IMG/VR virus record: IMGVR_UViG_3300027792_000292
Location: 62,001 to 126,000 of that record
Length of the DNA stretch: 64,000 nt
Strand: one strand, 5' to 3'
DNA from: a virus
The position numbers and the translations under genes were made by a program. Under the pieces are notes generated by a model. That model had not been told where the DNA came from. It searched no databases and worked only from the letters and a program-made list of their open reading frames with translations. This document shows positions 4,522 to 29,710 of the stretch, in pieces. Every line of letters starts with the position of its first letter. The stretch's first letter is position 1.

Positions 4522-6497
4522 CTAATTTTAAAATTGAAGAAGCTATAATTCAGCTAAATAAATATGACGATGCCTATTATAATGGGGAGTCTATTATCTC
4601 AGACAACGCCTATGATGCTTTTAAAAAAAGCATATTAGATATTTTGCCTGAAGATCATATATTAAGGCATAAAGTTGGTCATATAACATCTTCAGCATGG
4701 CCAAAGAAATCTCATAAAATATTTATGGGTTCTCAGAATAAGGTGTCAGATGAGAATAGCATAATAGAATGGGTAGAGAGCATATATGAAAAACTTAAAA
4801 ATAGAAATATTAAGTTTATAGTACAGTATAAAATAGACGGGCTATCCCTAGGTTGCTATTATAAAAAGGGTGTAATTCAAGATGTACTAACTAGGGGGGA
4901 TGGTTTTTCTGGGGAGTCGATTGTAAATAATGCTATAAATTTTAGAGAGCTGCCATATTCCTTAGCAGTACTAAAAGATATTAATGTAAGAGGTGAAGGA
5001 TATTTATTAAATAAATATTTTGATATTATTCAAAAAAGGACACAAAATAAATATAAAAACGCAAGAAATGCTGTATCTGGTATATGCCGTAGGTTAGACG
5101 GCGATTGTTCTCATTTTGTAGATGTTTTCGCATTTGATATAAATGCTGAGGTTAAAACTGAAACAGAAAAAATTGAAGTTCTTAAAAAGTTAGGCTTTAA
5201 TGTTGTACCGACTATAAGTTGCAGTACAATAGATGATATTTTAAAAATATATAGAGATGTACGGGATAATAAAAGAAAAAATTTATTATTCGGGATAGAC
5301 GGGCTAGTTTTAAAGGTTGATAATTTAGATTTTCAAAAAGAACTTGGTATAGAGCATAACAGACCAGTAGCCCAAATAGCTTTAAAATTTGACTCCGAAG
5401 AAGAAACAACTACTATAGAAGATATAAGATTACAGGTAGGTAGGACGGGGAAGATTGTACCTATCGCTATTCTAACCCCCGTAGAACTTATGGGAAGTAC
5501 GGTAAAGAAAGCTTCTCTTCATAATTTTAGATATATAGAAGAATGTCAGATTGGAATAGGTGCTGTAGTATCTATAGAAAAATGCGGAGATATAATTCCA
5601 CAAGTTTCAGATTTAGTTTTAGCAGGTAAAAATTATATAAAACCAGAAGTATGTCCCTCTTGTGGGAAACCTGTTGATGATGATGGAGTGAATCTTTGGT
5701 GTAAGAATAAAAGCTGTAAAGAAAAAGAAATTAATCGTATAAATTATTGGATGAGTGTTTTAGATATAAAAGGCTTCTCTAATAAGTTTATAGAGAAATT
5801 ATGGGATTTAGGGAAAATTAATTGTGCGGGAGACTTATACAAGCTTAAACCAGAAGATTTTGAAGAGGTAGCGGGTATTGGTTCTAAAACCATAAAGAAT
5901 TTTTTTAAAGTACTTGAAGATACCTCCGAGATGTATCTTGAAACTTTTATAAGAGCCCTAGGAATTTCTTCTTGCTCTGTATCTACTTCCGCTACTCTTG
6001 TTCACAATTTTAAAGATTGGGATACTATAAAAAACATAAAACCTGAAGATTTAGCAAAAATACCTGGATACGGGATTTCATCTGCTACAACTATTTGTGA
6101 GGATATGAGAGAGATTTTTGATATGGCAGATGAACTATTATCTGTGATTAAAATTAAACATAAAAAAATAGGTAGCCTAAATAATAAGTCTTTTTGTGCT
6201 ACAGGTGCTTTTAATAGCATGTCACGTAAATCTTTTCAAGACTTAGTTACTGAAAATGGTGGTATAGCTAAAAATGATGTAGGTAAAGGATTAGATTATT
6301 TAGTTTCAAATGATAGTAACTCTGGATCTTCAAAAAATGAAAAAGCCAAAAAATTCGGAGTAAAAGTTATCAGTGAAAAGGACTTTATGGCTTTAGTAGG
6401 TACTACTGTTGAGGCCAAAGCAGAAGAGAAAAAAGAGAAAGAAAAAAAAGATAGCGGAGTAGCATTGGTGTATAATAATATCTTTGAGGAAGATTGA
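4518..6497 (+). CDS. ligA: NAD+-dependent DNA ligase LigA
   Basis: 659 residues, full length for the family. In order: Ia-like N-terminus, nucleotidyltransferase domain with adenylated Lys105 in YKIDG, OB fold (LQVGRTGKIVPIAILTPV), four-Cys zinc finger (CPSCGKP...CKNKSC), helix-hairpin-helix segment (VAGIGSKTIKNFF and IPGYGISSATT) and a BRCT domain near residues 550-630. It seals nicks in replication and repair using NAD+. All key motifs are intact. An extra Lys/Glu-rich tail follows BRCT. Confidence 0.95.
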   Translation: MTNFKIEEAIIQLNKYDDAYYNGESIISDNAYDAFKKSILDILPEDHILRHKVGHITSSAWPKKSHKIFMGSQNKVSDENSIIEWVESIYEKLKNRNIKFIVQYKIDGLSLGCYYKKGVIQDVLTRGDGFSGESIVNNAINFRELPYSLAVLKDINVRGEGYLLNKYFDIIQKRTQNKYKNARNAVSGICRRLDGDCSHFVDVFAFDINAEVKTETEKIEVLKKLGFNVVPTISCSTIDDILKIYRDVRDNKRKNLLFGIDGLVLKVDNLDFQKELGIEHNRPVAQIALKFDSEEETTTIEDIRLQVGRTGKIVPIAILTPVELMGSTVKKASLHNFRYIEECQIGIGAVVSIEKCGDIIPQVSDLVLAGKNYIKPEVCPSCGKPVDDDGVNLWCKNKSCKEKEINRINYWMSVLDIKGFSNKFIEKLWDLGKINCAGDLYKLKPEDFEEVAGIGSKTIKNFFKVLEDTSEMYLETFIRALGISSCSVSTSATLVHNFKDWDTIKNIKPEDLAKIPGYGISSATTICEDMREIFDMADELLSVIKIKHKKIGSLNNKSFCATGAFNSMSRKSFQDLVTENGGIAKNDVGKGLDYLVSNDSNSGSSKNEKAKKFGVKVISEKDFMALVGTTVEAKAEEKKEKEKKDSGVALVYNNIFEED

Positions 6498-6573
6498 TTA
6501 GTATACCTTGTTACAAACTTAATTTATTTTCTTATAAAAGTAAAAATAATTAAACACGTTCTGGAGGAAAAAG

Positions 6574-7461
6574 ATGATTAAACTAAAAGATATTTCAATA
6601 TCAGACATAAACATGAGAGATATTGGTACAGAAGATTTAGATATAAAAGAACTAGAAAATTCTATATGTAACATGGGCCTACTTAGTAGGATCATTCTTA
6701 AAAAAAACGGAGAGCACATAGAGCTTATTACCGGGGCTCGAAGGTTACGAGCTTTGATAGGTATAAGAGGAGAGATGGGAGAACTTGAAGATTCTGAATA
6801 TATCTTCTTTGACAAATTATCAGAAATGGAATTGTTCTGTGTATCCCTTGATGAAAATACTAAAAGAAAAAATTTATCCCCCTTTGAGTTATGCAAAGCT
6901 ATTTTATGGTTAAATAATCACGGTAAAAAAGATAAAGAGATTGCTGAGATCCTTGGAGTTACCCCTCATAGGCTAAAAAGGCTTAGCCAACTAAGTGCCG
7001 ATAAGAATAAAATGTTACCTGAGATAATAGATGAGTTAAAGAAGAGTAATGGAAAAATTAATGACCTTCATTGGGATAAGATGCGGGAAGTAGAAGATCG
7101 AGAGGTTGTTAAGGATGTTTATGAGCAGATAGTAGAGAAAGAGTTGCCTCCTAGAGACGTACCTCAAATAGTTAATGCTGTACAGAAGGCTAGGAAAGCA
7201 GAGGAGGAGGCAACAGCACCGCCCCCTGCTTCTGATGTCGCCAAGTTAGATGGGGCTCCTGAAGACGTTGGAGGCCCTATAGTTTACTCTCATAAGGGAG
7301 ACCTATTACTTATTGAGGAGAGCGGTAAGATGAAGTTCCAAGTTATCGGTAAAGGTGAAGATAGTGAAGTTCCAGTAGACCAGTATTTGGAATATTTAAG
7401 GCATCCAGACAAATTCAAATGTAAGGTTAAATTGGAGTTAAAGTTTATTCCCATAGAATAA
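6574..7461 (+). CDS. ParB/Spo0J-like protein
   Basis: 295 residues. Residues of about 8-90 match the ParB N-terminal domain, including LITGARRLRAL, the GxRRxxA nucleotide-binding motif (here GARRLRA). Residues of about 105-140 (KEIAEILGVTPHRLKRLSQL) form a helix-turn-helix. The C-terminal part is Pro/Ala-rich and then beta-rich. There is no adjacent ParA, so a segregation role is not supported; phage ParB-like proteins can be regulators or nucleases. ParB-like proteins also occur in ThiF-linked cassettes, and a ThiF gene lies at 22.3 kb. Confidence 0.8.
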   Translation: MIKLKDISISDINMRDIGTEDLDIKELENSICNMGLLSRIILKKNGEHIELITGARRLRALIGIRGEMGELEDSEYIFFDKLSEMELFCVSLDENTKRKNLSPFELCKAILWLNNHGKKDKEIAEILGVTPHRLKRLSQLSADKNKMLPEIIDELKKSNGKINDLHWDKMREVEDREVVKDVYEQIVEKELPPRDVPQIVNAVQKARKAEEEATAPPPASDVAKLDGAPEDVGGPIVYSHKGDLLLIEESGKMKFQVIGKGEDSEVPVDQYLEYLRHPDKFKCKVKLELKFIPIE

Positions 7462-7483
7462 ATCTCTAATAATCTATTAATTA

Positions 7484-7527
7484 AGAGCATACTTACATAA
7501 AGATTAAGTATGCCTCTCATTTTTTTA
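7484..7527 (+). terminator. Rho-independent terminator after the ParB-like gene
   Basis: AGAG-CATACTTA pairs with TAAGTATG-C-CTCT (one bulged C), loop CATAAAGAT, followed by a run of seven T. It ends the ligA-parB block 15 nt before the next start. Confidence 0.8.
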
Positions 7528-7542
7528 TAATTGGAGATATTT

Positions 7543-8862
7543 ATGGCTGATTATACCTCTCCTTATGCTGATATACCATCTTATGGTAAGGGTCCTAAGT
7601 CCCTTTACTCAACAAATAATGAGGAGATCTTTGAGGTAATTCTTAATGTCCCTCAAATGGATGACGATGATGAGTGGGGTAAAACGGAGACTATTGCATT
7701 ACGCCAGATTATTGATAGAGTTACTACTATTGTTCAGGAAGTGGAAGATCCTAATGCTACGGGTACTAGTGGATTAGTGAACCAGGTTACTGCCCTTAGA
7801 AGAGTTATTCTATTAGATAATAATGTATTCACATCTGGTATTACAAATGGTTGTTCATTAAGTATAGGTAGCACCCAAATATCCTCAACCGTAGCGGCTT
7901 TTGGAGGGTCAGTCACAGCACTGGGTACTGTATCCGCTGTAGGATCTTTAAATAGTGGATCAGGATTAAATATTACTGGTAGTAGCATACTATGGGGTGA
8001 CCTAACTGCTTGCGGTAATGTTAGTACCTATGGTATTAGCGTAAATGGTCCTTTAAATGTGGTAGATGGTGATGGTGGTAGTGCAGCATTAAGCATTGCA
8101 GGACCTATAGCTGGAGAGTCTGTAACCGCTGGATCAGGAAGATTTAATTATCTTGTAACAGAAGATCCGGGAACTAGTACCTTTTGTGGTAATGTTCGTG
8201 TAGAAAGCGTTGCTGGATTACCTGATGATACAGGGAGTCTTACAGTTGATAAACAAATTACTACGGGGTCTTTAACTGCTACTTCTGTAATTGCTGGAGT
8301 AGCGTCATTTAGTGCTATTTCAGTAGCCGAGGCCGATCAGGATACTAGTACTTTTTTCGGGGCAGTTAATATAGTTAAAGTTACTGGTGTTCCTGATACT
8401 GGGTTTCTTACTGTAGAAGATACATTGACGACTCTTGCTCTTAATGTACTAGATGTGTCTCATTTCTATGGTGTATCAAACTTTTGTGGGTCTGTATTCA
8501 TAGGGACTGATGGGATTACTAATACAGTAACACATAAAGGGAACTACATATTGAGTAATGGATACGCTACCATACCAATTATAGCTGGAAATACAAGTTT
8601 TAGTAATAACGTAACTATAACTGGTACGTTAAATCTTGATGCTCTAGCTTGGACACAGACTATAGCTCCTTCTGTAAGTGGGGGGTATTCTTTAGGTAGT
8701 GCGGACTCAGCTTATTTAGGAGTTTACCTGACAGATAGAAATAGTGCGGTACCTAATCCCTATCTTTTCTTTTTCTATCAAGGTGCTACTACACCATATC
8801 TTGGAGTGAGGATTGGTGCTACAAACTATTATGTTGCGCTGACTAATTTAAGTCCGGCATAA
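7543..8862 (+). CDS. Tail-fibre/adhesin-like repetitive structural protein
   Basis: 439 residues from the ATG at 7543, which follows TTGGAGA; the TTG at 7531 is part of that ribosome-binding site. The protein is Gly/Ser/Thr/Val-rich with short beta-strand repeats, including recurrent STFCGNV, STFFGAVN and SNFCGSV blocks spaced about 60-80 residues, as in beta-helical fibres or baseplate spikes. The C-terminus ends in YLGVRIGATNYYVAL-type strands seen in trimeric fibres. Probably a virion surface component; the family is not identified. Confidence 0.5.
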   Translation: MADYTSPYADIPSYGKGPKSLYSTNNEEIFEVILNVPQMDDDDEWGKTETIALRQIIDRVTTIVQEVEDPNATGTSGLVNQVTALRRVILLDNNVFTSGITNGCSLSIGSTQISSTVAAFGGSVTALGTVSAVGSLNSGSGLNITGSSILWGDLTACGNVSTYGISVNGPLNVVDGDGGSAALSIAGPIAGESVTAGSGRFNYLVTEDPGTSTFCGNVRVESVAGLPDDTGSLTVDKQITTGSLTATSVIAGVASFSAISVAEADQDTSTFFGAVNIVKVTGVPDTGFLTVEDTLTTLALNVLDVSHFYGVSNFCGSVFIGTDGITNTVTHKGNYILSNGYATIPIIAGNTSFSNNVTITGTLNLDALAWTQTIAPSVSGGYSLGSADSAYLGVYLTDRNSAVPNPYLFFFYQGATTPYLGVRIGATNYYVALTNLSPA

Positions 8863-8893
8863 AATATAACACATCATATTGAAGGAGATTCAG

Positions 8894-9325
8894 ATGAAGA
8901 TTAAGAATGGTTTTATTGCAGATCCAAATTTCAAAGTAGCTTTTCAGTCCCTGTTCTCAAGACCTGTGACAGCTAAACAGTGCTTGGAACTAAATCAGTC
9001 TGCCGATGAACTTGATTCCCATTTAAGAATTATACTAAAATCTAAGTTCCAGATAATGGAAAAATACGGAAAAAAAGACGAATCTGGTAAGCTGATGACG
9101 GAAGCTAATGGAGATGTATTATTTCCTAATGCTGAGGTTAAAGAAAAATGCGCAAAAGAAGTAATGGAGATACTTAATGAAGAATATGATATCCCACTCA
9201 CATCTAAAATTATTATGTTCGAGGATGAGATTATTCTTCCAGTACATTATAGTCTTTTGAGGGATTTGATAGAAATCAAAGAACGTCCAAAATTGCCAGA
9301 TGCTAAGGTAGAAGTTAAAGTATAA
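8894..9325 (+). CDS. Hypothetical protein, DUF1617-like
   Basis: 143 residues from an ATG preceded by AAGGAGATT; a TTG at 8879 lies ahead of that site. Mostly helical, with a pattern (LNQSADELDSHLRIILKS, then KYGKKDESGKLM) that recalls the small phage DUF1617 proteins of tail operons. It follows the fibre-like gene by 31 bp, so it may act with it. Low certainty. Confidence 0.4.
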   Translation: MKIKNGFIADPNFKVAFQSLFSRPVTAKQCLELNQSADELDSHLRIILKSKFQIMEKYGKKDESGKLMTEANGDVLFPNAEVKEKCAKEVMEILNEEYDIPLTSKIIMFEDEIILPVHYSLLRDLIEIKERPKLPDAKVEVKV

Positions 9326-9393: not shown

Positions 9394-9457
9394 ACCGAAC
9401 ATGCAGGTTGAAACGCATGTGTGGAAGAGACCATCACTCCCAGGTTTCAAAATCGGT
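9394..9457 (+). promoter_or_regulatory. Possible folded 5' leader
   Basis: The roughly 100-nt untranslated region contains ACCGA (9394-9398) pairing with TCGGT (9453-9457) around a hairpin ACATGC (9399-9404) with GCATGT (9415-9420). It lies between promoter and start codon, so could regulate the gene at 9491. Stems are short; modest support. Confidence 0.3.
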
Positions 9458-15307: not shown

Positions 15308-15456
15308 GGGTTCTGCACTCTGACAGATAATGGATGCGTACATTTGCATTTGCATTTAGCTCAGTCGGTAGAGCTGAGGAATAATAATCCTTTGGTCGGC
15401 GGTTCAACTCCGCTAGTGCATTCCTTTCTATCGCATCTGCGACTTGTGCAGAACCC
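15308..15456 (+). ncRNA. Y-RNA-like unit A with tRNA-like module
   Basis: A perfect 11-bp outer stem (GGGTTCTGCAC, 15308-15318, with 15446-15456) encloses an internal loop, then the inner stem GATGCG (15333-15338) with CGCATC (15432-15437), then TACATT and a complete tRNA-like cloverleaf (15350-15422). The inner motif is shared by all seven units here. A Ro60 gene lies 1.7 kb downstream, so I interpret this as a Y RNA of the YrlA type, whose stem binds Ro60 and whose module contacts an effector. An AT-rich tail (TTTTAAAATTTTT) after the outer stem may terminate it. Confidence 0.75.
15350..15422 (+). tRNA. tRNA-like module of unit A (anticodon AAT), embedded in the Y-like RNA
   Basis: Acceptor TTGCATT (15350-15356) pairs with AGTGCAT except for a U-U mismatch at position 1-72. 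D arm GCTC/GAGC with loop AGTCGGTA, anticodon arm GAGGA/TCCTT with loop ATAATAA (anticodon AAT), T arm GGCGG/CCGCT with loop TTCAACT. No CCA is encoded. The A34 anticodon is rare in bacteria, and the module sits inside a larger hairpin, so it is more likely a mimic than a free tRNA. Confidence 0.6.
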
Positions 15457-15469
15457 TTTTAAAATTTTT

Positions 15470-15499
15470 CTTGATCATTGAATACCGAAATGGTATATT
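15470..15499 (+). promoter_or_regulatory. Promoter of RNA unit B (CTTGAT-18-TATATT)
   Basis: CTTGAT at 15470-15475 and TATATT at 15494-15499 with an 18-bp spacer; the spacer end CGAAATGG resembles that of unit A (TGAAATGG). Confidence 0.8.
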
Positions 15500-15536
15500 A
15501 GTGTTACTCAAGTGAAACTTGGAAAGTTCTTTGAAA

Positions 15537-15661
15537 GATACGAAGCATACTCAAACCCTTGATGCATACATTATAGCTCATTGGTAGAGCGTTTGCCATT
15601 TAAGCAAAAGGTACGGTTCAAATCCGTTCGTCCCGCATTAGTAACTCGTGTGCTTTGTATC
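15537..15661 (+). ncRNA. Y-RNA-like unit B with acceptor-less tRNA-like module
   Basis: A 14-bp outer stem with two G-U pairs (15537-15550 with 15648-15661), inner stem GATGC (15561-15565) with GCATT (15635-15639), then TACATT. The module has a D arm GCTC/GAGC with loop ATTGGTA, anticodon-like arm TTTGC/GCAAA with loop CATTTAA, and T arm ACGG/CCGT with loop TTCAAAT. The positions of the acceptor strands (TACATTA and CGTCCCG) do not pair, so the Y stem replaces the acceptor. Position 33 is A rather than the universal U. Cannot be a working tRNA. Confidence 0.75.
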
Positions 15662-15670
15662 TATATATTT

Positions 15671-15735
15671 CGAGAGTTCTCGCTACTCAACGACCACGGA
15701 TTAAAAGACGTATACGAAGAGTAAAGGGTCTCTCG
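15671..15735 (+). ncRNA. Extra folded element between units B and C
   Basis: CGAGAG (15671-15676) pairs with CTCTCG (15730-15735), and inside TACTC (15684-15688) with GAGTA (15719-15723). It lacks the shared Y-like motif and any T arm. It may be a spacer structure, a processing signal or a separate small RNA. Confidence 0.35.
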
Positions 15736-15767
15736 ACTGAAAATAAGTTTTTTGATAATAGATCTTT

Positions 15768-15913
15768 GACATGAGTTACACTCCAACTTTTGATGCGTAC
15801 ATTTGCTTTTTCGTCCAATTGGTAGGACATTACTCTGATAAAGTGATTGTTGGGGGTTCAAGTCCCTCAAAAGCAGCCCAAAACTCGCATTATCAACTTG
15901 TGTAACTCATGTC
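15768..15913 (+). ncRNA. Y-RNA-like unit C with canonical tRNA cloverleaf
   Basis: A perfect 13-bp outer stem GACATGAGTTACA (15768-15780) with 15901-15913, inner stem GATGCG (15792-15797) with CGCATT (15886-15891), then TACATT and a complete tRNA-Ile-like cloverleaf (15804-15876). No strong own promoter is seen; it may be read from the unit B promoter. A T-run follows the outer stem and may terminate it. Confidence 0.75.
15804..15876 (+). tRNA. tRNA-Ile(GAT)-like cloverleaf inside unit C
   Basis: All arms pair: acceptor TGCTTTT/AAAAGCA (7 of 7), D stem GTCC/GGAC with loop AATTGGTA, anticodon stem TTACT/AGTGA with loop CTGATAA (U33, anticodon GAT at 15837-15839), T stem GGGGG/CCCTC with loop TTCAAGT, discriminator G, then CCC instead of CCA. 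Structurally it could be a true tRNA-Ile, but it is enclosed in a 13-bp outer stem and the shared Y-like motif. It may be both, if nucleases free it. Confidence 0.65.
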
Positions 15914-15921
15914 ATTTTTTT

Positions 15922-15951
15922 CTTGATCTTTAATTACCAAAAAGGTATATT
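15922..15951 (+). promoter_or_regulatory. Promoter of RNA unit D (CTTGAT-18-TATATT)
   Basis: CTTGAT at 15922-15927, 18 bp, TATATT at 15946-15951, again extended to TATATTAG. A small hairpin GACCT-GAAA-AGGTC follows at about 15960-15973 before the unit. Confidence 0.8.
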
Positions 15952-15989
15952 AGAATACAGACCTGAAAAGGTCAAGCTCTTTGAAAGAT

Positions 15990-16152
15990 AGAAGCACTCT
16001 CTAATTTTGGATGCATACATTGGTTCAAGCGTTTGCTAACTAAAGCAAAAGATTGTTCGTTCAAGTCGAACTTCCCCCACCAAGTAGATTTTAATGTCTA
16101 CTTGGTGGGGGAAAAGCTTAATAAAAAAAGCATTTATAACTTGAGTGTTTCT
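15990..16152 (+). ncRNA. Y-RNA-like unit D with degenerate tRNA-like module and inserted hairpin
   Basis: Outer stem AGAAGCACTC (15990-15999) with GAGTGTTTCT (16143-16152), inner motif GATGCATACATT paired to GCATTTATAACTT. The module resembles unit B but its D arm is worn away; an anticodon-like arm TTTGC/GCAAA and a T arm GTTCG/CGAAC with loop TTCAAGT remain. A perfect hairpin of about 17 bp (16072-16113) follows the T arm where an acceptor strand would be. Confidence 0.65.
16072..16113 (+). repeat. Long perfect hairpin within unit D
   Basis: CCCCCACCAAGTAGA (16074-16088) pairs with TCTACTTGGTGGGGG (16097-16111), extended by two T-A pairs, with an 8-nt loop. Far more stable than the rest of the unit. 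Because A-rich rather than T-rich sequence follows, it is not a normal + strand terminator. Confidence 0.7.
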
Positions 16153-16196
16153 TCTTTCATTCGTTCCTTGTCCCTATGTAATAGGGGTTGTTCTAT

Positions 16197-16336
16197 GAAA
16201 AGTATCTTCTAACAGTTAGGGCGTACATTATCCTGTAAAGATAAACGCCTGGGCATTAAGCGCTCAGGCATCTGTATTCCTTCCGCCTTAGCGCGGCTGG
16301 GATATAGCACACGCATTGATTACTCGGATACTTCTC
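16197..16336 (+). ncRNA. Y-RNA-like unit E with non-tRNA module
   Basis: Outer stem GAAAAGTATC (16197-16206) with GATACTTCTC (16327-16336), one mismatch. The shared motif appears as GGGCGTACATT and CGCATTGATTACT. The module forms two hairpins: GCCTG/CAGGC with inner GC/GC, and TATTCC/GGGATA enclosing CCGC/GCGG. No T loop is present, so this module is not tRNA-like. A hairpin CCCTAT-GTA-ATAGGG lies upstream, as hairpins do before units B and D. No clear promoter. Confidence 0.6.
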
Positions 16337-16358
16337 TTGTCATACTCTTTGAAATTAT

Positions 16359-16481
16359 AGTGTATTTATCCTCTAATGCTGAGGGCTTACATTTTCTACG
16401 GTTGAAAAACAAGCCTAAGCGCACTCCCGTTTGGTGGGAGGAAGCGATGGGTCGAGCACTTAGGACTCGGATAAATACATT
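16359..16481 (+). ncRNA. Y-RNA-like unit F, most diverged, with hairpin module
   Basis: A perfect 11-bp outer stem TGTATTTATCC (16361-16371) with GGATAAATACA (16469-16479), extendable by two pairs. The shared motif is degenerate: GGGCTTACATT and GCACTTAGGACTCGG, with CTGAGGGC/GCACTTAG pairing but for one mismatch. The module has hairpin CTCCC/GGGAG and no tRNA arms. TCTTTGAAA lies just upstream as for other units. An ORF across this region is spurious. Confidence 0.55.
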
Positions 16482-16501
16482 ATTATATAATTACTATGAG
16501 T

Positions 16502-16652
16502 ATAAGTCTCATCTTCTAACTTTTGATGCGTACATTGTCATGCTGGTTCGAATCCAGTCGCTCTTTTCGGAGAGCGTAGCCGAATGGTAAGGCACCCGTT
16601 TAAGGAACAGGAACAAAACAAACTTCGCATTAGTAACTTGGATGGGATTTAT
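16502..16652 (+). ncRNA. Y-RNA-like unit G with circularly permuted tRNA-like module
   Basis: A 12-bp outer stem with two G-U pairs (16502-16513 with 16641-16652) and the full motif GATGCGTACATT (16525-16536) with CGCATTAGTAACTTG (16626-16640). The module runs in permuted order: T arm GCTGG-TTCGAAT-CCAGT, acceptor strands CGCTCTT and GAGAGCG joined by a TTCG tetraloop, TA, D arm GCC-GAATGGTAA-GGC, then anticodon arm CCCGT/ACAGG (one mismatch) with loop TTAAGGA. T arm before D arm is, as I recall, the YrlA arrangement. The Y stem enters between anticodon and T arms. Confidence 0.8.
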
Positions 16653-16804: not shown

Positions 16805-17062
16805 ATGGCAAGTGTGCATATTCGTTACGATGGTAGTACCAGGGAAGTCGATTTCGAAAATATTTTTCCAGAAGATCGACTTACAGCTATAGGGATTGCC
16901 AATACCGCGCAGGTTAACTCACGCAACGTGAGCGCCGATAACGTCAAGACTGCCGTAGCGCAGTATCTCGATATCGGATTGGGAGAACTTGATGGGTATA
17001 ACGTCGAGTTCCATAAGAACGGAAACATCACCGTTCGCCCTGATGCTGTATTTGGGAAGTAA
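16805..17062 (+). CDS. Small ubiquitin-like (beta-grasp) candidate
   Basis: 85 residues from the ATG after AGAGGAGG; an in-frame ATA at 16760 is too far upstream. Predicted pattern is strands near residues 2-14, a helix near 43-53 and strands near 63-80, ending VRPDAVFGK. Size and layout fit a beta-grasp/ubiquitin-like protein, and a JAMM protease and an E1-like enzyme are encoded 4-6 kb downstream. There is no C-terminal GG; FGK would need trimming or a different chemistry. Function is inferred. First gene of the Ro60 operon, with CGT-rich codon use. Confidence 0.45.
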   Translation: MASVHIRYDGSTREVDFENIFPEDRLTAIGIANTAQVNSRNVSADNVKTAVAQYLDIGLGELDGYNVEFHKNGNITVRPDAVFGK

Positions 17063-17074
17063 GTTGTCCAACTC

Positions 17075-17094
17075 GGGCCTATAAATTAAGGCCC
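17075..17094 (+). terminator. Hairpin between Ubl candidate and Ro60 gene
   Basis: GGGCCT (17075-17080) pairs with AGGCCC (17089-17094). No T-run, so probably an mRNA-stabilising or attenuating hairpin. Confidence 0.4.
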
Positions 17095-17132
17095 TCAAAC
17101 CTGATAATATAATACTTAAAAGGAGAAACTCC

Positions 17133-18731
17133 ATGAATCGTCAGCGTAACACTCAAACTGTTTCCGCGCCACAAATACCACAGGTTGAACAGGACATCCG
17201 TGTTCAAATGCTCAATAGCTTCATGTCCTGTCCACATCGTGATACTGATGCGATCAGGAAGATACATGAGGATCTGCGACAGCGTGACCCTTCATTCTAC
17301 TCTCATCTTGCTGCCTGGTATGAGAAGAATGGCGAACTTCGCGACCACAAGGAAGTATTCATTTCTATGTTGATCGTAGACCCCTATCTCGATAACCGTG
17401 AGGTTGGTCTTGCCCTGTGGCAGAAAGCTGTGCCTTTCATGAAGACCCGTATCCTTGGTTTCATTAAGGGTAAGAAGGTCAAGATTCGTGAGAAGACAAA
17501 TCAGACACGCCAAGTTGGAAAGAAGAAAATTCCGGTAGTAAACGTGACCGAGAAAGTTGTGGGCCTTTTTAAGAACGTGCCCTCAGCGTTCAAGACTGAG
17601 GTGGTACACTATCTAAAGTGGTTAGAGACCGACCCTGAGCGTTTTGATGGTGTGGCTATGCGCAACTCTGAGGATTTGAGGACGCTCTACGCTTCCTTGA
17701 AAATCCCTCACTCAAAGAGAGTGCAACAAATCCTTTGGGAGAAGAAGTACCCAAAGGAGAGTAAGTTGAATGTTTTCAAGGAGATTACGGATGCGAAGTC
17801 TCCTGAAGAAGCAGCAACGCTCATTGTTAAGAATAAGGTTCCGTATACTACGGCAGTAGGTCTCATTGAGAAGATGACCCCCTCCATCTTGGTTGCTCTC
17901 ATCAATAATATGAGTTCCCAGGAAGTTATTAACAACATTGCTTCTCTTCAGGAGAGTGGTGCATTAGATAACCCTGATACTAAGGCTATGGTTGAAAAGA
18001 AGCTTAAGCAGGCTGAGACCGCAAAGAATGTTACAGCCTTGAAGTCTAAAGCAGCGATTAATACAGGTCGTATCAAGGATGAGGCTGTCGTGGCGCAACT
18101 TGATAAGATTGCAGATGTACAAATAAAGAGCAAAGGTATCATTATGGCTTCTACAGCGATCTTTGTAGATCGCTCTGGATCGATGAGCATTGCTATTGAG
18201 TCAGGGAAGCATTGTGCAGCGATGGTATCCGGTGCTACAGAAGCTCCTTTGTATGTGGTTGCCTTTGATACGCTTCCAATGGAAATCTATCCAGTGTCCG
18301 CACGTCCAAAGGACAGGACCACTACCATGACCGACTGGGAAAGGGCATTTAAGCCTGTGCGCGATGGTGGTTCGACTTCTATGGGATGTGCTTTGGAGTA
18401 TCTGCGTCAAAAGAAGATGTACGTTGAGCAGATTGTTGTTATTACTGATGAGGGTGAGAATGCAACCCCCATGTTCACTGATGTCTATACTCGGTACTCC
18501 GAGGAGATGAAGGTGAAGCCTCATGTGGTTATCATCCGTACACCAAATTCAGGTCATACTTTCAGCACAAACCTGAAGAGGGCTGGTATTAGTTATGATG
18601 TATACACTCCTAATGGGTCAGACTACTATGGTTTACCAGGATTGATTCCACTTCTTGCCCGAACATCGAAGCTGGACCTTCTTATGGAGATCATGGATAC
18701 TCCGCTTCCTACACGTAGGCAGTGGAAGTAA
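17133..18731 (+). CDS. rsr: Ro60/TROVE-vWA protein (Rsr-like)
   Basis: 532 residues, close to the size of bacterial Rsr and animal Ro60. Residues of about 20-330 are a helical-repeat TROVE region (for example AFKTEVVHYLKWL, TAVGLIEKMTPSILVALINNM). The vWA domain begins near residue 340 with the MIDAS motif DRSGSMS (Asp346) and continues with GGSTSMG and VITDEGE. Ro60 is a ring that binds Y RNAs on its outer face and RNA 3' ends in its cavity. The seven Y-like RNAs directly upstream are the obvious ligands. Arg is mostly CGT/CGC, unlike neighbours. Confidence 0.9.
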   Translation: MNRQRNTQTVSAPQIPQVEQDIRVQMLNSFMSCPHRDTDAIRKIHEDLRQRDPSFYSHLAAWYEKNGELRDHKEVFISMLIVDPYLDNREVGLALWQKAVPFMKTRILGFIKGKKVKIREKTNQTRQVGKKKIPVVNVTEKVVGLFKNVPSAFKTEVVHYLKWLETDPERFDGVAMRNSEDLRTLYASLKIPHSKRVQQILWEKKYPKESKLNVFKEITDAKSPEEAATLIVKNKVPYTTAVGLIEKMTPSILVALINNMSSQEVINNIASLQESGALDNPDTKAMVEKKLKQAETAKNVTALKSKAAINTGRIKDEAVVAQLDKIADVQIKSKGIIMASTAIFVDRSGSMSIAIESGKHCAAMVSGATEAPLYVVAFDTLPMEIYPVSARPKDRTTTMTDWERAFKPVRDGGSTSMGCALEYLRQKKMYVEQIVVITDEGENATPMFTDVYTRYSEEMKVKPHVVIIRTPNSGHTFSTNLKRAGISYDVYTPNGSDYYGLPGLIPLLARTSKLDLLMEIMDTPLPTRRQWK

Positions 18732-18738
18732 CGAGATA

Positions 18739-18768
18739 GGGGTGGGCTTCATCAGAAGCCCCTCTTTT
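18739..18768 (+). terminator. Terminator after the Ro60 gene
   Basis: GGGCTTC, loop ATCA, GAAGCCC followed by CTCTTTTC. Probably partial, since the next gene starts at 18786 without a clear promoter. Confidence 0.7.
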
Positions 18769-18785
18769 CTATTTAAGAGGATAAT

Positions 18786-19649
18786 ATGAACGACGTACTA
18801 GCACTTATCAAAAAGATGGGGGAGAAAGAAGATACTATTACTAAGAGTATCTTTATATCTCCTATATATGGGAATGAGTATGTCGTTACTCGTATCAATG
18901 GGTTAGTTCATAAGTTGGGGGTACCCGACTCTACTAAGCCAGGTTGGTACAAGTTGAAGGCTTGTAATTTTAAAAGAGCCAAAGTAGTTGGTAACGCAGA
19001 CTTCATTGAAGTTGAAGAGTATCTCAAGATGCTCACGAAGATACGAGTGATATTAGTCTACAAAAAAGACGAATTGTACTTTGGTGTTCCTTTGAAAAAC
19101 AATTCAGCTGGCTTTGGCGTGTCAGATCTTATCCCGATATATTTAACATCTGATGATCTTGTAGGACCATTTGAGAAGGTCGTTTGCGGTTTTGACGGGG
19201 CTAACCTCTGGTACTATCAGAATGATATCTCTGCTGATCCTGCCAGGACGGAGTATTTAAGGGAGAGCTTTGATAAGTTTGTTCGACCAGATAAGGTACA
19301 GTATACAGGATTAACTCTTGAGGAGAAGATAGCTTACACTCTCAGATTCAATTTGGATAAGAAAGCCAGAGAGTCTTTGAAGGAAGTACTTATACAGAAA
19401 GATGTAGAGTTTGCTGGTGGTGAGTTTGTGAAGTTCGTAGAAAGAAATGATCACTACAGCGTCACCTATAAGATAGGTGGAAATCAATATACGAGTTATG
19501 TAACTAAAGATGAGAGTCATCATGTACTTACTGCAGGGGTATGTTTAAATGGTCACGATAGAGACTATGATTTGACTTCTCTAATAACGGTTCTAAGAGA
19601 AGGACAGAGAAGGGGTCTTATTCATAGATATAACAATACTACAGAATAG
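18786..19649 (+). CDS. Conserved-looking protein of unknown function in the Ro60 locus
   Basis: 287 residues after AAGAGG. Beta-rich N-terminal two thirds, then a helical segment and a C-terminal block HHVLTAGVCLNGHDRDYDL followed by TSLITVLREGQ. The Cys/His/Asp-containing C-terminal block looks like a conserved active or binding site, but I recognise no family. Position between Ro60 and the JAMM gene suggests a role in the same system. Confidence 0.6.
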   Translation: MNDVLALIKKMGEKEDTITKSIFISPIYGNEYVVTRINGLVHKLGVPDSTKPGWYKLKACNFKRAKVVGNADFIEVEEYLKMLTKIRVILVYKKDELYFGVPLKNNSAGFGVSDLIPIYLTSDDLVGPFEKVVCGFDGANLWYYQNDISADPARTEYLRESFDKFVRPDKVQYTGLTLEEKIAYTLRFNLDKKARESLKEVLIQKDVEFAGGEFVKFVERNDHYSVTYKIGGNQYTSYVTKDESHHVLTAGVCLNGHDRDYDLTSLITVLREGQRRGLIHRYNNTTE

Positions 19650-19657
19650 GAGTAGCT

Positions 19658-19837
19658 ATGGATATTCTTACAGAAGAAGAGCGTGCCAAGTTAGAAGAGC
19701 AGGGTTGGATTATAACAAGTGAAAGCCCTCTTGAAATACGGCATGAAGAGAGTGATTCTTTCGCATCTAATGTGGCAGCAGAGATGCTTATACAGGTATT
19801 ATTGGAAGAGGATGAAGAAGAGGACTCTGAGGAATGA
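19658..19837 (+). CDS. Small acidic protein, 59 aa
   Basis: Starts after ATAGGAG and overlaps the next gene by ATGA. MDILTEEERAKLEEQGW is followed by an SPLEIRHEESDSFA segment and a Glu/Asp-rich tail. No known function; the acidic tail and size resemble adaptor-like phage proteins. Confidence 0.6.
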   Translation: MDILTEEERAKLEEQGWIITSESPLEIRHEESDSFASNVAAEMLIQVLLEEDEEEDSEE

Positions 19838-20445
19838 CGGTATATGTTATAGGACCTAAAGATAGAAAACGGATGATAGAGTTTAAAGCTAAGAACATTC
19901 CTATAGTGAATACAACATCCTCCGCAAAGGGATGTTGGTCTATGTTATTGAGTCCTTTTTATCTTGGGCCTGTATATTTGTATGGAGGGTATTCTGCCTG
20001 TAAGATGGAAAGCGCATGGCAGTATAGTAAGGTATACTCCAGTTATATGGATGCTGAAGGAAATCCTACCCCAGCATATTTTGAATGGGCGATGGAAGGG
20101 TGGAAGAGTAAAATAGCAGTCAGGTACCCTATGGGTAAAGAGGCTAAGCCAGAGTACATATGGTGGGATGGTGAGAAGTTAGATTATGTAGCTGCGAGAA
20201 AGAAAGTCTATGCTCCTTTATACATAAAGTGCGTAGTGCCTAAAATATCTTTCACTAAGCTAAAGGAAATGAGGGACAGTAATACCGACATAGTACTTTG
20301 GGATTTTGATGGCTATGATTATATTTCATTAGGTATGACTTTGAGAGATGTACTAAACGATCCGAATCGTAAGATGGGGCATGCTTTTATTTTGGCAATA
20401 CTTTTAACAATGAAAAAAGAAGAAATTTTAGATATACTGAGTTAA
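19834..20445 (+). CDS. DUF6939-like protein
   Basis: 203 residues. Blocks such as LSPFYLGPVYLYGGYSACKM, ESAWQYSKVY, RYPMGKEAKPEYIWW and LWDFDGYD are those of DUF6939, a family found in phages and bacteria. The ESAWQYSK segment recalls NADAR-type folds that act on ADP-ribose derivatives, but that link is only a resemblance. Overlaps the preceding gene by four bases. Confidence 0.65.
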   Translation: MTVYVIGPKDRKRMIEFKAKNIPIVNTTSSAKGCWSMLLSPFYLGPVYLYGGYSACKMESAWQYSKVYSSYMDAEGNPTPAYFEWAMEGWKSKIAVRYPMGKEAKPEYIWWDGEKLDYVAARKKVYAPLYIKCVVPKISFTKLKEMRDSNTDIVLWDFDGYDYISLGMTLRDVLNDPNRKMGHAFILAILLTMKKEEILDILS

Positions 20446-20446
20446 T

Positions 20447-20620
20447 ATGGGAAAAATAATAAAGAATATATGGAGACTGTGGGCTAAGGCGTTAGGTCAG
20501 AAAGCATCGGATGATGATAAAGAAGCAGATATAGTAGCCATTATAAGAACAGTCATAGCTTTAGTTTACATCATAACAAACATAGTCATAGTAGCCGGAG
20601 TTATTAAGCACTGGTATTAA
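20447..20620 (+). CDS. Small single-span membrane protein, 57 aa
   Basis: ATG after the previous stop. Basic/amphipathic N-terminus, then a hydrophobic segment (IVAIIRTVIALVYIITNIVI, about residues 29-52). One transmembrane helix, role unknown. No ribosome-binding site stands out. Confidence 0.5.
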   Translation: MGKIIKNIWRLWAKALGQKASDDDKEADIVAIIRTVIALVYIITNIVIVAGVIKHWY

Positions 20621-20632
20621 TAGGGGGTGACC

Positions 20633-20785
20633 GTGAATTTAAGTAAATCAGACTTTGAAGTATTGGACTGCCCAGATGGTATAGTATACCAAGACGGAAC
20701 TAAATATGAGTTTACGTCAGAAGAAAAGTTAAAAGAAACAGAAAAGATAAAAGAAGCTACTAAGCACACAAGAATGAAAGACTGA
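20633..20785 (+). CDS. Small protein with GTG start, 50 aa
   Basis: A GTG start lies after TAGGGGGTGA. Reads VNLSKSDFEVLDCPDGIVYQ with a Lys/Glu-rich helical C-terminus. Ends three bases before the JAMM gene, so likely cotranslated with it. Function unknown. Confidence 0.5.
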   Translation: MNLSKSDFEVLDCPDGIVYQDGTKYEFTSEEKLKETEKIKEATKHTRMKD

Positions 20786-20788
20786 AAC

Positions 20789-21145
20789 ATGAATGAAAAG
20801 TGTTGGTTTATCTTCGGTAAGAAGGTAAAGAATACATACATCGGATGGTTGAAGTATAGCTCTGAGGGAAATCCAGTAAGTGTAAGTTTTAATTGGTCAG
20901 ATGCAGCAAAGAAGAATCTTCTTGGATTTCATCACACACATCCTGATGGCTGTTTATGGTTTTCTTCAAGAGATGATAAGACAATGAAAGCTTGGGCCAG
21001 GGCAGAGGGAAAACCCCTTATCTGCTCAGTAAGAAGTAGTGGGAAAGATGCAGCAGCGATATGGAAGAGAATGGAAGATAAAAGTGTAGGGCATCTACCG
21101 CTACATGTAATGATAAAAGGTAACCTATTTATGGCATGGGAATAA
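20789..21145 (+). CDS. JAMM/JAB-type metalloprotease (isopeptidase-like)
   Basis: 118 residues, a minimal MPN domain. The metal site H-x-H-x(7)-S-x(2)-D is exact: His49-Thr-His51, Ser59 and Asp62 in HHTHPDGCLWFSSRDD. JAMM enzymes cleave isopeptide or C-terminal peptide bonds of ubiquitin-like proteins; in bacteria they process Ubl precursors or remove Ubl from targets. Paired here with an E1-like protein at 22298 and a Ubl candidate at 16805. It lacks the NlpC domain of tail JAB proteins, which argues against a tail-assembly role. Confidence 0.8.
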   Translation: MNEKCWFIFGKKVKNTYIGWLKYSSEGNPVSVSFNWSDAAKKNLLGFHHTHPDGCLWFSSRDDKTMKAWARAEGKPLICSVRSSGKDAAAIWKRMEDKSVGHLPLHVMIKGNLFMAWE

Positions 21146-21378
21146 GTTATTACTATGCCATACTTGGTGTAAATAGTGTAATACCCTTATTGAAAGGTAT
21201 AGAAGTGAAAATTGAGTCAACTGGTTACTTAATAAAAACAGTTAAATACAAAGGTAAAATCTATCCACCATTGTCTATATTTCGTTGGATCGATTATTTA
21301 CCTGGTAATCAAGTTAAGATACAAATTGATGCGGACATCATAATTGTACATAGCACATCCATTCATATAGGAGGATAA
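21136..21378 (+). CDS. Hypothetical protein, 80 aa
   Basis: Overlaps the end of the JAMM gene by 10 bases in another frame. Beta-rich with no recognised motif. No clear ribosome-binding site other than the coupling. Confidence 0.45.
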   Translation: MGISYYYAILGVNSVIPLLKGIEVKIESTGYLIKTVKYKGKIYPPLSIFRWIDYLPGNQVKIQIDADIIIVHSTSIHIGG

Positions 21379-21380
21379 TT

Positions 21381-22289
21381 ATGGAAAGATCAACTATTCG
21401 GAGACAGCTACATAAAACTGTACGAGAATGGATTAACAGTATCACAGATGTCAAAGTAAAAGAAGCTTGCGAGGCAGATGTGTTAGTTGCAGGTGGATGT
21501 ATCTCTTCAATATTGTTAAAGGAAAAAGTTAACGACTATGATGTATATTTTCGAACAAAAGAAACCGCGAGCCTCGTAGTAGCTTATTATGTTAACTTAT
21601 TTAAAAGCACCTTTCCTACTGCTACACATATAACAGGAAAACCAATCGAAATTTTTACGGATGGTCCAAATATCATAATAAAATCTGCAGGGGTTGCCTC
21701 AGCTACAAGTTCAGATACGCCTTATCAGTACTTTGAAACTGCACCAGAAGATAACGCAGCGGAGTACTTGGATGTAGCGGTAAATGCTAAAATTCCAAAA
21801 GATTTACCTCCATATACTCCTATTTTCTTGTCTGGTAATGCTGTTACCTTGACCAATAGTATTCAATTGGTTACTCGATTTTATGGTGACATTGATTATG
21901 TCAAAACCACCTTTGATTTTGAGCATACAAAATGCATTTATGACTTTGCTGCCAATCGACTGCATTTACCTGAAAATTCGTTATATGCTATTTTAACTCG
22001 ATCATTAATCTATACAGGATCAGCATATCCCATTTGTTCAATGATCAGAACAAATAAGTTTATCCAACGAGGCTGGTCGATTAATGCAGGTAACTATTTA
22101 AAGATTGCTTTCGATATTAACAGTTTAAATCTTAACTCTTTAAATACACTTAGAGATCAACTCATAGGTGTAGATGTAGCATATTTTCAAGAATTGTTGG
22201 AAGTTTTAAAGAAGGATATTACACAAACACCTGGTAAAGTTATATCAGCTACGTATATTGCGGAGCTGTTGGATCGTCTATTCGCATAG
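21381..22289 (+). CDS. Pol-beta-type nucleotidyltransferase-like protein
   Basis: 302 residues after AGGAGG. The segment VLVAGGCISSILLKEKVNDYDVYF (GG, then NDYDVYF) carries the nucleotidyltransferase signature GG...S...DxD, with the Asp pair in DYDVYF. Such enzymes add nucleotides to RNA ends or to proteins. The C-terminal half is helical and unlike CCA-adding enzymes. Located between JAMM and E1-like genes and close to the tRNA-like RNAs, so RNA-end modification is possible. Confidence 0.6.
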   Translation: MERSTIRRQLHKTVREWINSITDVKVKEACEADVLVAGGCISSILLKEKVNDYDVYFRTKETASLVVAYYVNLFKSTFPTATHITGKPIEIFTDGPNIIIKSAGVASATSSDTPYQYFETAPEDNAAEYLDVAVNAKIPKDLPPYTPIFLSGNAVTLTNSIQLVTRFYGDIDYVKTTFDFEHTKCIYDFAANRLHLPENSLYAILTRSLIYTGSAYPICSMIRTNKFIQRGWSINAGNYLKIAFDINSLNLNSLNTLRDQLIGVDVAYFQELLEVLKKDITQTPGKVISATYIAELLDRLFA

Positions 22290-22297
22290 GAGTACAT

Positions 22298-22936
22298 ATG
22301 AAGACCTTTGTACATGAGGAAGTTTACCGGGGTAAGGAAACCCTGGATAAGATTGCAAAAGCTAAGTTCACTATTTGCGGGCTCGGAGCTATCGGCTCAA
22401 ACCTTGTGATGAACATGGCTCGTCAGAGTTTCACGAATTTCACGGTTATTGATTTTGACCGTATAGAGGATCACAATCGTCATACACAAATTTGGGGTGC
22501 AAAAGAAGTCGGTCAGATGAAGGCTGCTATGATGCAGCGCCGAATGTACGATGAGATGGGTTTGAAGATTCAGATAGAGCCAAAGAAGTTAGATGAGGCC
22601 AACATTAAGAAGCTTGTACAGAAGGACACTATTGTGATAGATGGTTTTGACAATACTGAAGCTCGTGGTCTTGTGACTACGTTCTGTACTGAGAACAAGA
22701 TTCAATGCTTGCACATAGGGATGCGTCAGGACTACGCAGAGGTTATCTGGAATGAAAACTACATAGTCCCTAAGAAGCACGGAAAAGATATCTGTGAGTA
22801 TCCCCTTGCCAGGAATATTATTCTGTTGGCAGTGGCTGTGGGTACAGAAACTATTCTTCGCTATGTGGATACTGGGGTAAAAGAGAACTATGCAATCACC
22901 CTAAAAGACTGCAATATCTCTAAGCTGGAGTATTAA
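22298..22936 (+). CDS. ThiF/MoeB/E1-like adenylyltransferase
   Basis: 212 residues, a compact E1-type Rossmann domain. Seen: nucleotide-binding GLGAIG (residues 28-33), VIDFDRIEDHNRHTQ with the Asp and the Arg-finger-like residues, AKEVGQMKA with the ATP-contacting Lys, and VIDGFDN. These enzymes adenylate the C-terminus of a ubiquitin-like protein. No C-x2-C zinc pairs occur; a Cys in DICEYP lies about where a catalytic Cys could sit. Codon use is CGT-rich as in the Ro60 gene. With the JAMM protein and Ubl candidate it makes a minimal Ubl module; no E2 is seen. Confidence 0.85.
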   Translation: MKTFVHEEVYRGKETLDKIAKAKFTICGLGAIGSNLVMNMARQSFTNFTVIDFDRIEDHNRHTQIWGAKEVGQMKAAMMQRRMYDEMGLKIQIEPKKLDEANIKKLVQKDTIVIDGFDNTEARGLVTTFCTENKIQCLHIGMRQDYAEVIWNENYIVPKKHGKDICEYPLARNIILLAVAVGTETILRYVDTGVKENYAITLKDCNISKLEY

Positions 22937-28591: not shown

Positions 28592-29710
28592 ATGCTTGAG
28601 ATACTTAAATTTTTAAATGAGCATCCTTATGATTGGAAGCAGGTTCTGGAAGCAGAACCATATTGTATGACCATACGGGAGAAGGGTAACTTTGTACTTT
28701 TTATGTACAATCAAATCGAATCCGATTTCAATATTCCTTTAGTACAGGAATGCCGTGGAATCGTATTAGAGAAGGATACCTGGAAAGTTCTATGTTTTCC
28801 TTTTACCAAATTCTGGAATGCCGGGGAATCCAAGGCAGCGGTACTTGATTGGGGCTCTGCGCGAGTACAGGAGAAAATAGATGGTTCCATGATAAAGCTT
28901 TGGTGGTACGAACCAGAGTGGAGAGTATCTACCATGTCCATGATAGATGCAAAAGATTGTACCTTACAGAACGATTTAGATGTCAGATACAATACTTTCT
29001 ATGATTTGTTTATGGAAGGCGCAAATAAAAGAGCTTTAGACTTTGAAGCTTTAAATAAAGATTATACGCATATGTTTGAGTTAGTAGGACCTTACAATCG
29101 AGTGGTTGTGCCATATAAAGACATTGCTATAACCCACACGGGAACTAGAGATAACAGAACTCTCGAAGAGTTAGATATCGACCTTGGGGTTCCTAAGCCT
29201 AAGTCTTATGGGTTCAAGGCCCCAGAAGATGTTCTGGCTATGGCAGCTGCCTTGCCTTTCTCTGAAGAGGGCTATGTGGTTGTAGATGCTAATTGGAATC
29301 GAATAAAAATCAAAGGCCCGGCCTATGTAGCTGTGCATCACCTCAAAAATAATGGTGACATAAATAAGAAAAGGGCTTTAGCGCTTGTCATGCTTAATGA
29401 GCAGGAAGAGTTCCTGTCCTATTTCCCGGAGTACAAAACATACTTCGATGTTATCACTGATGCTTTCAATACCTATTTAGGTAAGGTAAAAGCTGATATA
29501 GATTCTATTGAGGGAAAGGTATTTGAAACCAGGAAGGAATATGCTCTAACTGTTAAGGGTATGACTAACTCCGCCCTTATGTTCTTTATTATGGACGGTA
29601 GAGTTAAGAAGGAAGATTGGGAAAAGCATATACGTTCTTTGCCCTCAGATAAAGTAGTAGAGTATCTACATTTAAAAAATATAAAAGAGTCATTGGAGGT
29701 AAAAGAGTAA
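28592..29710 (+). CDS. RNA ligase (T4 Rnl1-like)
   Basis: 372 residues, near the size of T4 RnlA. The adenylated Lys95 is in EKIDGSM (motif I), preceded by ECRGIVLE; FELVGPYN (motif IIIa-like), EEGYVVVD (motif IV) and KIKGPAY (motif V) follow in order. ATP-dependent ligases of this group seal RNA breaks, typically tRNAs cut by host anti-phage nucleases. No polynucleotide kinase is seen in the window. Confidence 0.85.
   Translation: MLEILKFLNEHPYDWKQVLEAEPYCMTIREKGNFVLFMYNQIESDFNIPLVQECRGIVLEKDTWKVLCFPFTKFWNAGESKAAVLDWGSARVQEKIDGSMIKLWWYEPEWRVSTMSMIDAKDCTLQNDLDVRYNTFYDLFMEGANKRALDFEALNKDYTHMFELVGPYNRVVVPYKDIAITHTGTRDNRTLEELDIDLGVPKPKSYGFKAPEDVLAMAAALPFSEEGYVVVDANWNRIKIKGPAYVAVHHLKNNGDINKKRALALVMLNEQEEFLSYFPEYKTYFDVITDAFNTYLGKVKADIDSIEGKVFETRKEYALTVKGMTNSALMFFIMDGRVKKEDWEKHIRSLPSDKVVEYLHLKNIKESLEVKE

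Follow-up and report, generated by a model that had tools for sequence, protein, structure and literature searches.

A Ro60 and Y-like RNA cassette of huge phages that carries the parts of a putative ubiquitin-like conjugation pathway

The IMG/VR virus record IMGVR_UViG_3300027792_000292 (131,126 bp) carries, within the 64,000-nucleotide stretch analysed here (the window, bases 62001-126000 of the record), a cassette in which seven Y-like RNAs, an 85-amino-acid (aa) ubiquitin-like (Ubl) protein, Ro60, a 287-aa protein, a JAMM protease and a compact E1 activating enzyme all lie on one strand. The 287-aa protein, the product of 18786..19649, is labelled X287 throughout. The locus probably specifies a reversible pathway of ubiquitin-like conjugation that is coupled to the Ro60-Y RNA particle, as the Ubl protein, the E1, the JAMM protease and a protein with an invariant cysteine (X287) are conserved beside Ro60 and the Y-like RNAs, and in one locus the Ubl protein is fused to Ro60. 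This suggests a coupling, not described before, between RNA surveillance and protein tagging. Ro60 and Y RNAs, which are major autoantigens, show conservation all the way from bacteria to humans, and the handling of misfolded RNA by Ro60 is unsettled; if the proposal is true, a genetically fixed Ubl link would provide Ro60 with a definite action downstream, one that can be tested with six small parts, and a Ubl-conjugation cassette would be encoded by phages rather than hosts and tied to noncoding RNA. The protein-coding parts, in window coordinates, are as follows.

16805..17062, + strand: Ubl-like modifier, 85 aa, with the C-terminus ...RPDAVFG-K (family A9, Gly84 column, AlphaFold2 (AF2) model)
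17133..18731, + strand: Ro60/TROVE-like protein, 532 aa, with the DxSxS of the vWA metal-ion-dependent adhesion site (MIDAS) intact (family profile, MIDAS alignment)
18786..19649, + strand: X287, 287 aa, with N-terminal OB/S1-like barrels and a C-terminal domain with G251-x-C253-x4-D258; candidate E2-like transferase
20789..21145, + strand: JAMM/JAB metalloprotease, 118 aa (zinc-site alignment; PF14464 22.7 bits)
22298..22936, + strand: E1/ThiF-like activating enzyme, 212 aa, Cys166 conserved (PF00899 83.5 bits; 48-sequence alignment)

The genes for the Ubl-like protein, Ro60, JAMM and E1 lie where the original prediction, made from the letters of the window, had placed them, and the JAMM motif that it named, H49-x-H51-x7-S59-x2-D62, is present at 20789-21145. 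Among these four genes the Pfam-type libraries name only the E1 (ThiF) and the JAMM protease (Prok-JAB). The 85-aa protein and X287 have no convincing match in Pfam, NCBIfam, PHROGs or PADLOC, and the modifier and X287 are defined here as two protein families that are named by no library searched.

Conservation and distribution of the cassette

All five proteins occur, with identities of 26-60% and an unchanged order, in the 595-kb huge-phage record LR756511.1 and in a 210-kb IMG/VR contig. Loci L005-L071 came from searches in which Ro60, E1 and X287 alignments served as queries, an alignment-based search being needed because a single-sequence Ro60 query of viral contigs gave no matches. Across 50 representative loci Ro60 is present in 46, X287 in 48, E1 in 47, JAMM in 44 and the modifier in 44, all components are on the same strand with a median span of 6.2 kb, and two gene orders dominate, Ro60-X287-JAMM-Ubl-E1 (n=23) and Ubl-Ro60-X287-JAMM-E1 (n=12). 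No modifier was detected in L004, L014, L032 and L053. As the loci were gathered via Ro60, E1 or X287, the presence count of the gathering gene is partly circular, and retrieval by E1 only is the cleanest test; by that route X287 adjoins E1 in 38 of 42 loci, and two of the remaining four end at a contig edge. The pairwise identities of Ro60, X287, JAMM and E1 correlate (r 0.93-0.96), a pattern as expected of a unit that is inherited together. A lack of co-occurrence in related phages had been named beforehand as a refutation of the original prediction, and co-occurrence held across very diverged phages.

It might be supposed that unrelated phage cargo genes gather near tRNA islands without sharing a common pathway, as cargo could plausibly be sited in the tRNA islands of huge phages and the accessory genes within the cluster do vary. 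This is extremely unlikely and is largely refuted, as five genes and the Y-like RNAs stay together on one strand, mainly in two orders, across 50 loci whose identity varies widely, whilst other neighbours are replaced. Other widely common neighbours are few, with HNH-type endonucleases chief among them.

The loci lie almost all on huge-phage IMG/VR contigs, which reach 536 kb. Open reading frames (ORFs) that match phrog_2, presumably the terminase large subunit, were found in 6 of the 9 records tested and none in the record of the window, so that the latter is assigned to phages on the grounds of its IMG/VR entry and of kinship. The modifier, Ro60, X287 and E1 are also found, with JAMM not detected, on two plasmids, one of Dolichospermum and one (1.2 Mb) of Kovacikia, and a scan of genome contigs with X287 found only 2 contigs of metagenome-assembled genomes, which may be phage DNA in the bins. 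On the Kovacikia minuta plasmid pA (L073) a 33-tRNA array with Y-like RNAs (5176-9219) runs into the cassette, and a PolyA_pol/CCA-type enzyme lies between Ro60 and X287, which may be compared with the putative nucleotidyltransferase of the window listed below.

Ro60 and the Y-like RNAs

The Ro60 candidate gives no match to Pfam TROVE at E <= 1 for four members, and only vWA families match, weakly. A profile of 23 sequences of the family does match solved chains of RO60 (9nen, 1.1e-11), Ro60 (1yvp, 2.3e-8) and Rsr (2nvo, 3e-4), and therefore the assignment holds. The MIDAS residues D346, S348, S350 and T415 of the vWA domain are invariant in the 23 sequences.

The RNA array that had been claimed upstream of the genes is real, as a search of the complete 131-kb record with the covariance model (CM) gave seven matches, each of them within window positions 15310-16649. 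The units are as follows.

15310..15455, + strand: Y-like RNA unit 1, with a tRNA-like insert (CM R1 60 bits; arms 15304-15318/15446-15460 (15 nt) 93% complementary; tRNA-Ile-like at 15350-15424)
15536..15662, + strand: Y-like RNA unit 2, with a 15-bp terminal stem and a truncated tRNA-like insert (CM 80.5 bits)
15767..15914, + strand: Y-like RNA unit 3, with a perfect 15-bp terminal stem and a tRNA-like insert (CM 101.7 bits)
15990..16152, + strand: Y-like RNA unit 4, with a partial tRNA-like and long hairpin insert (CM 75.7 bits)
16199..16335, + strand: Y-like RNA unit 5, the weakest (CM R1 33.2 bits, E 8e-5)
16357..16483, + strand: Y-like RNA unit 6, with a 15-bp terminal stem (CM 43.5 bits)
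16502..16652, + strand: Y-like RNA unit 7, with a T-arm-first (permuted) tRNA-like insert (CM 54.2 bits)

Each unit begins with a terminal stem of 10-19 bp, the sequence of which differs per unit, followed by a short internal loop and an inner helix that ends in GC-N-TACAT; there is then usually a tRNA-like insert, and GCA...ACTT ahead of the closing strand. By this architecture the units are predicted to be Y RNAs. The Rfam YrlA model matched unit 7 only (16541-16593, E 0.023) at 24.7 bits, the gathering score of 69 bits not being reached. A strict scan for the unit plan in the fetched loci found 69 units in + orientation and 15 in the opposite orientation, with 0-1 in shuffled sequence, a count which duplicate loci inflate. 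In the pair counts all terminal-stem positions show two-sided changes, the stem itself having been a criterion of selection, and the inner-helix positions 21-23, which were not selected for, vary on both sides as well. As the exact motif GATGCRTACATT is specific to the window, a covariance model was built instead, and this gives full-length matches in 35 of the 50 loci, 24 of them outside the set used to build the model; partial matches that cover model positions 33-109 represent ordinary tRNAs and were left out of the counts. The full-length matches adjoin the modifier or Ro60, or usually lie 0.3-2 kb after E1. When 42 new matches were checked, most had paired ends of at least 8 bp, and the exact 5' motif was also kept in 13. 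Permuted inserts, with the T-arm before the D-arm, occur in the window (16502-16652) and in L007 (9449-9599), L010 (9135-9292) and L016 (9282-9432), and permuted and normal-order inserts coexist within one array.

Many of the 20-kb loci contain 10-42 tRNA genes. In five of six contigs of more than 370 kb the tRNAs listed cluster around the cassette, the exception, among the tRNAs listed, being the contig of L011. Phage tmRNA genes are found within the same 20-kb neighbourhoods, in L003 (11109-11509) and also in L014, L027, L035 and L071.

The ubiquitin-like modifier

The fold predicted for the modifier is strand-strand-helix-strand-strand (AF2; predicted local distance difference test (pLDDT) 80, predicted template modelling score 0.67). 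Its glycine column, Gly84 in the window, holds G in 39 of 40 sequences, with the C-terminus exactly there in 13, one residue beyond in 14 and two residues beyond in 5, which gives 32 of 40 sequences with a tail of 0-2 residues. This is the pattern of a putative ubiquitin-like tail that is either exposed or in need of light trimming. The predicted topology is beta-grasp-like, as had been proposed for the 85-aa protein, and the terminal glycine is near-invariant. It had also been proposed that a remnant FGK might be sought on proteins by mass spectrometry; as trypsin does not cleave R-P, the expected remnant is NGNITVRPDAVFG.

In a diverged clade the modifier had not been observed upstream of Ro60, and clustering of small ORFs that was blind, with no prior assumption, identified a modifier homologue in 24 of the 26 loci; it sits between JAMM and E1 and mostly ends in RPKTPFG with a short tail. 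L054 has an in-frame fusion of the modifier to the Ro60 N-terminus, with Ro60 starting directly after LRPDSVLG, and this hints at Ro60 as its partner.

The E1 and the JAMM protease

The E1 matches Pfam ThiF (PF00899) at 83.5 bits against a cut-off of 28.1. Its ATP-site residues (GxGxxG, D52, N60, Q64, K75 and D118) are kept in 48 of 48 sequences and its crossover cysteine, Cys166, in all 47 sequences that cover it. The JAMM protease scores below the Pfam cut-off of 25 bits against Prok-JAB (PF14464), with 22.7 bits in the window and 21.3 in L024. Its zinc site HxHPx6SxxD (H49, H51, P52, S59 and D62) is invariant (42/42), and from these catalytic residues the enzyme is likely to be active.

The same enzymes could belong to a sulfur-carrier system, in which the small protein would be a ThiS/Urm1-like thiocarboxylate carrier that is activated by the E1 and trimmed by JAMM, and X287 would pass the sulfur on to RNA that Ro60 binds, either tRNA or Y RNA. 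The best-matching families of the E1 are ThiF/MoeB/TcdA, the genes are surrounded by tRNA islands and tRNA-like Y RNAs, X287 combines a conserved cysteine with RNA-binding-like barrels, and operons of JAB, ThiS/MoaD and E1 exist (PMC1779556). However, the neighbours include no widely conserved sulfur-transfer partner, most modifiers end in one Gly and not Gly-Gly, and the modifier has no profile match to ThiS or MoaD; sulfur delivery is considered quite improbable.

X287, a candidate E2-like protein

The sole invariant columns of X287, in 43 sequences of 17-51% identity, are G251, C253 and D258. The E2 signature is G-x-I-C-L, and the motif of X287 recalls this. In the structural model (pLDDT 93.4) N-terminal barrels are followed by a C-terminal helix, four strands, the C253 loop and a helix, with C253, which is kept in 43/43 sequences, predicted to lie between strand 246-249 and helix 263-276. 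This order corresponds to the layout of a minimal E2 core, but the searches gave no support for homology to E2s, and X287 is treated as an E2-like candidate only. The original prediction had offered three genes for the role of E2, of which 18786 (X287) does belong to the conserved set, and those at 9401 (given there as 9491) and 10499 were rejected, as they turned up again in 4 loci only. The conservation of 18786 along with the other components, and its invariant cysteine, leave it as the one reasonable candidate. A helix in the linker of X287 (residues ~175-192, LTLEEKIAYTLRFNLDKK) resembles a ubiquitin-interacting motif, the matches to Rpn10 (E 0.34) and RAP80 (E 0.79) not being significant; the top match of that search, an antifreeze protein (3e-4), was disregarded as its score is the sum of four weak repeats.

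The archaeal SAMP1-JAMM1 system is not known to use an E2, and in a similar manner to Urm1 and the archaeal SAMPs the E1 of the cassette might hand the modifier directly to targets bound by Ro60, with X287 acting as an RNA-binding adaptor whose cysteine is structural or redox-active. The N-terminal barrels of X287 resemble S1/OB RNA-binding domains, X287 is without a sequence or fold match to E2s, the E1 has a conserved cysteine of its own, and a SAMP1-JAMM1 system is known in archaea (PMC4443979). Against this, the invariant G-x-C-x4-D motif and the helix-four strands-helix layout would be expected of an E2-like enzyme, and X287 is as well conserved as the E1 and nearly always beside it. Conjugation without an E2 is considered unlikely.

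A possible pathway and its weaknesses

For a conjugation pathway coupled to Ro60 we infer a sequence of steps as follows. The seven Y-like RNAs would bind Ro60 and present their tRNA-like modules. JAMM would trim the short tail behind Gly84 of the modifier, or might remove conjugates later, and the E1 would adenylate the modifier and take it onto Cys166. X287, with its RNA-binding-like barrels and invariant Cys253, could then accept the modifier as an E2-like carrier, and its final acceptor would be either Ro60 or some protein that the Ro60-RNA particle holds. As the cassette is often within tRNA islands, the likeliest purpose would be protection or quality control of phage RNAs, and a guess is that host tRNA-cleaving effectors caught on damaged tRNA are tagged. 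A more specific version, put forward only tentatively, is that conjugation is RNA-directed, with the Y-like RNAs and Ro60 sensing aberrant or cleaved tRNAs and steering the tagging of proteins there by the E1, the E2-like protein and JAMM, as a counter-defence of huge phages against host RNases.

Several observations weigh against a conjugation pathway of this kind. In Pfam, NCBIfam, PDB profiles and hhalign the modifier shows no profile similarity to known Ubl families, nor X287 to E2 families; hhalign comparisons of the modifier with ubiquitin, ThiS and MoaD, and of the X287 C-terminus with three yeast E2s, found nothing, the reference sequences having been entered by hand, and Prok-E2_B, searched in 195 genomes, gave one match, too few for a profile comparison. 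With Foldseek, PB1 and UBL (beta-grasp) domains top the list for the modifier model at E 0.1-0.9, without significance, and X287 matches OB/S1-type nucleic-acid-binding barrels, with no E2 among the top matches. The E1 has a replacement (T63 in the window; S in 25, T in 17, N in 4, A in 1 and G in 1 of 48 sequences) at the arginine of N-x-x-R-Q, which to our knowledge is near-universal in E1/MoeB/ThiF. In the modifier of L071 Ala replaces the terminal Gly, four loci are without a detectable JAMM despite the presence of most other parts, and the correlation of identities is also predicted by simple co-inheritance.

Relation to known systems

Known bacterial Ro60 is paired with PNPase or RNA-repair genes. 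The cassette resembles bacterial Ro60 (Rsr)-Y RNA/YrlA particles in the profile homology of its Ro60 and in having terminal-stem, tRNA-like Y RNAs encoded beside Ro60, whereas its Y RNAs fall below the Rfam YrlA cut-off, and no known particle met in the literature searched has a link to a Ubl pathway. In a survey of jumbo phages ROT/TROVE proteins appear solely as platforms for RNA repair, and the terms ThiF and JAB are absent (PMC7824862); no cassette with Ro60 is listed in the passages drawn on here of a 2006 survey of Ubl cassettes in prokaryotes (PMC1779556). In the open full-text literature, with preprints and most subscription papers outside the search, no description was found of Ro60/TROVE together with Ubl, ThiF or JAB. 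On that basis the combination of Ro60 and a Ubl pathway appears to be new, the E1, JAMM, Ro60 and Y RNA parts singly being members of known families.

The kinship with known anti-phage or conjugation cassettes that the original prediction had implied was not supported, as the models for PRTRC, Bil and CBASS either fail or recognise nothing beyond the E1 fold. PRTRC or type 6d cassettes consist of Ub-like, JAB, E1, E2 and alpha-helical proteins (PMC1779556). The logic of Ubl, E1, JAB and a cysteine protein is shared with these, and the E1 has a distant match to PRTRC_ThiF (39 bits against a cut-off of 145), but the partner in the cassette is Ro60 with Y RNAs; membership of PRTRC, prompted by weak ParB and ThiF matches, was rejected as no PRTRC B or C model matches. 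For the Bil operon and type II CBASS an E1-E2, Cap2, and a JAB protein, Cap3, are described (PMC10097602). The cassette has the E1 fold and the JAB fold in common with them, yet it is without a CD-NTase, its E1 is not fused to an E2, and it is phage-encoded and not directed against phages. The Cap2/BilD models match only the E1 domain of the cassette and not a full-length E1-E2, and no Bil or CBASS partner genes were found. Urm1-Uba4 and SAMP-UbaA-JAMM1 also have a small modifier and a ThiF-type E1, with a JAMM deconjugase in the case of SAMP and a link to tRNA biology in that of Urm1; the cassette differs from them in having neither a sulfurtransferase partner nor sequence similarity in the modifier, and in its extra conserved cysteine protein and Ro60.

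Accessory and neighbouring genes

Two further genes of the window lie within the cluster.

19834..20445, + strand: DUF6939 protein, accessory (PF22075 28.2 bits)
21381..22289, + strand: possible nucleotidyltransferase, accessory (GG...DYDVYF-like motif judged by eye)

The DUF6939 protein was not found in the three relatives tested, and the ORF at 21381..22289 has no Pfam match. Both, together with a ParB/Noc-like protein upstream of the RNA array (window 6574-7461; TIGR04285 52.7 bits, below cut-off), were dropped as core parts as they are not conserved. A T4 Rnl1-type RNA ligase (PF09511 47 bits) lies ~6 kb downstream of the cassette at window positions 28592-29710, and a similar ligase-like ORF, judged by eye, is found in L003 at 18031-19146.

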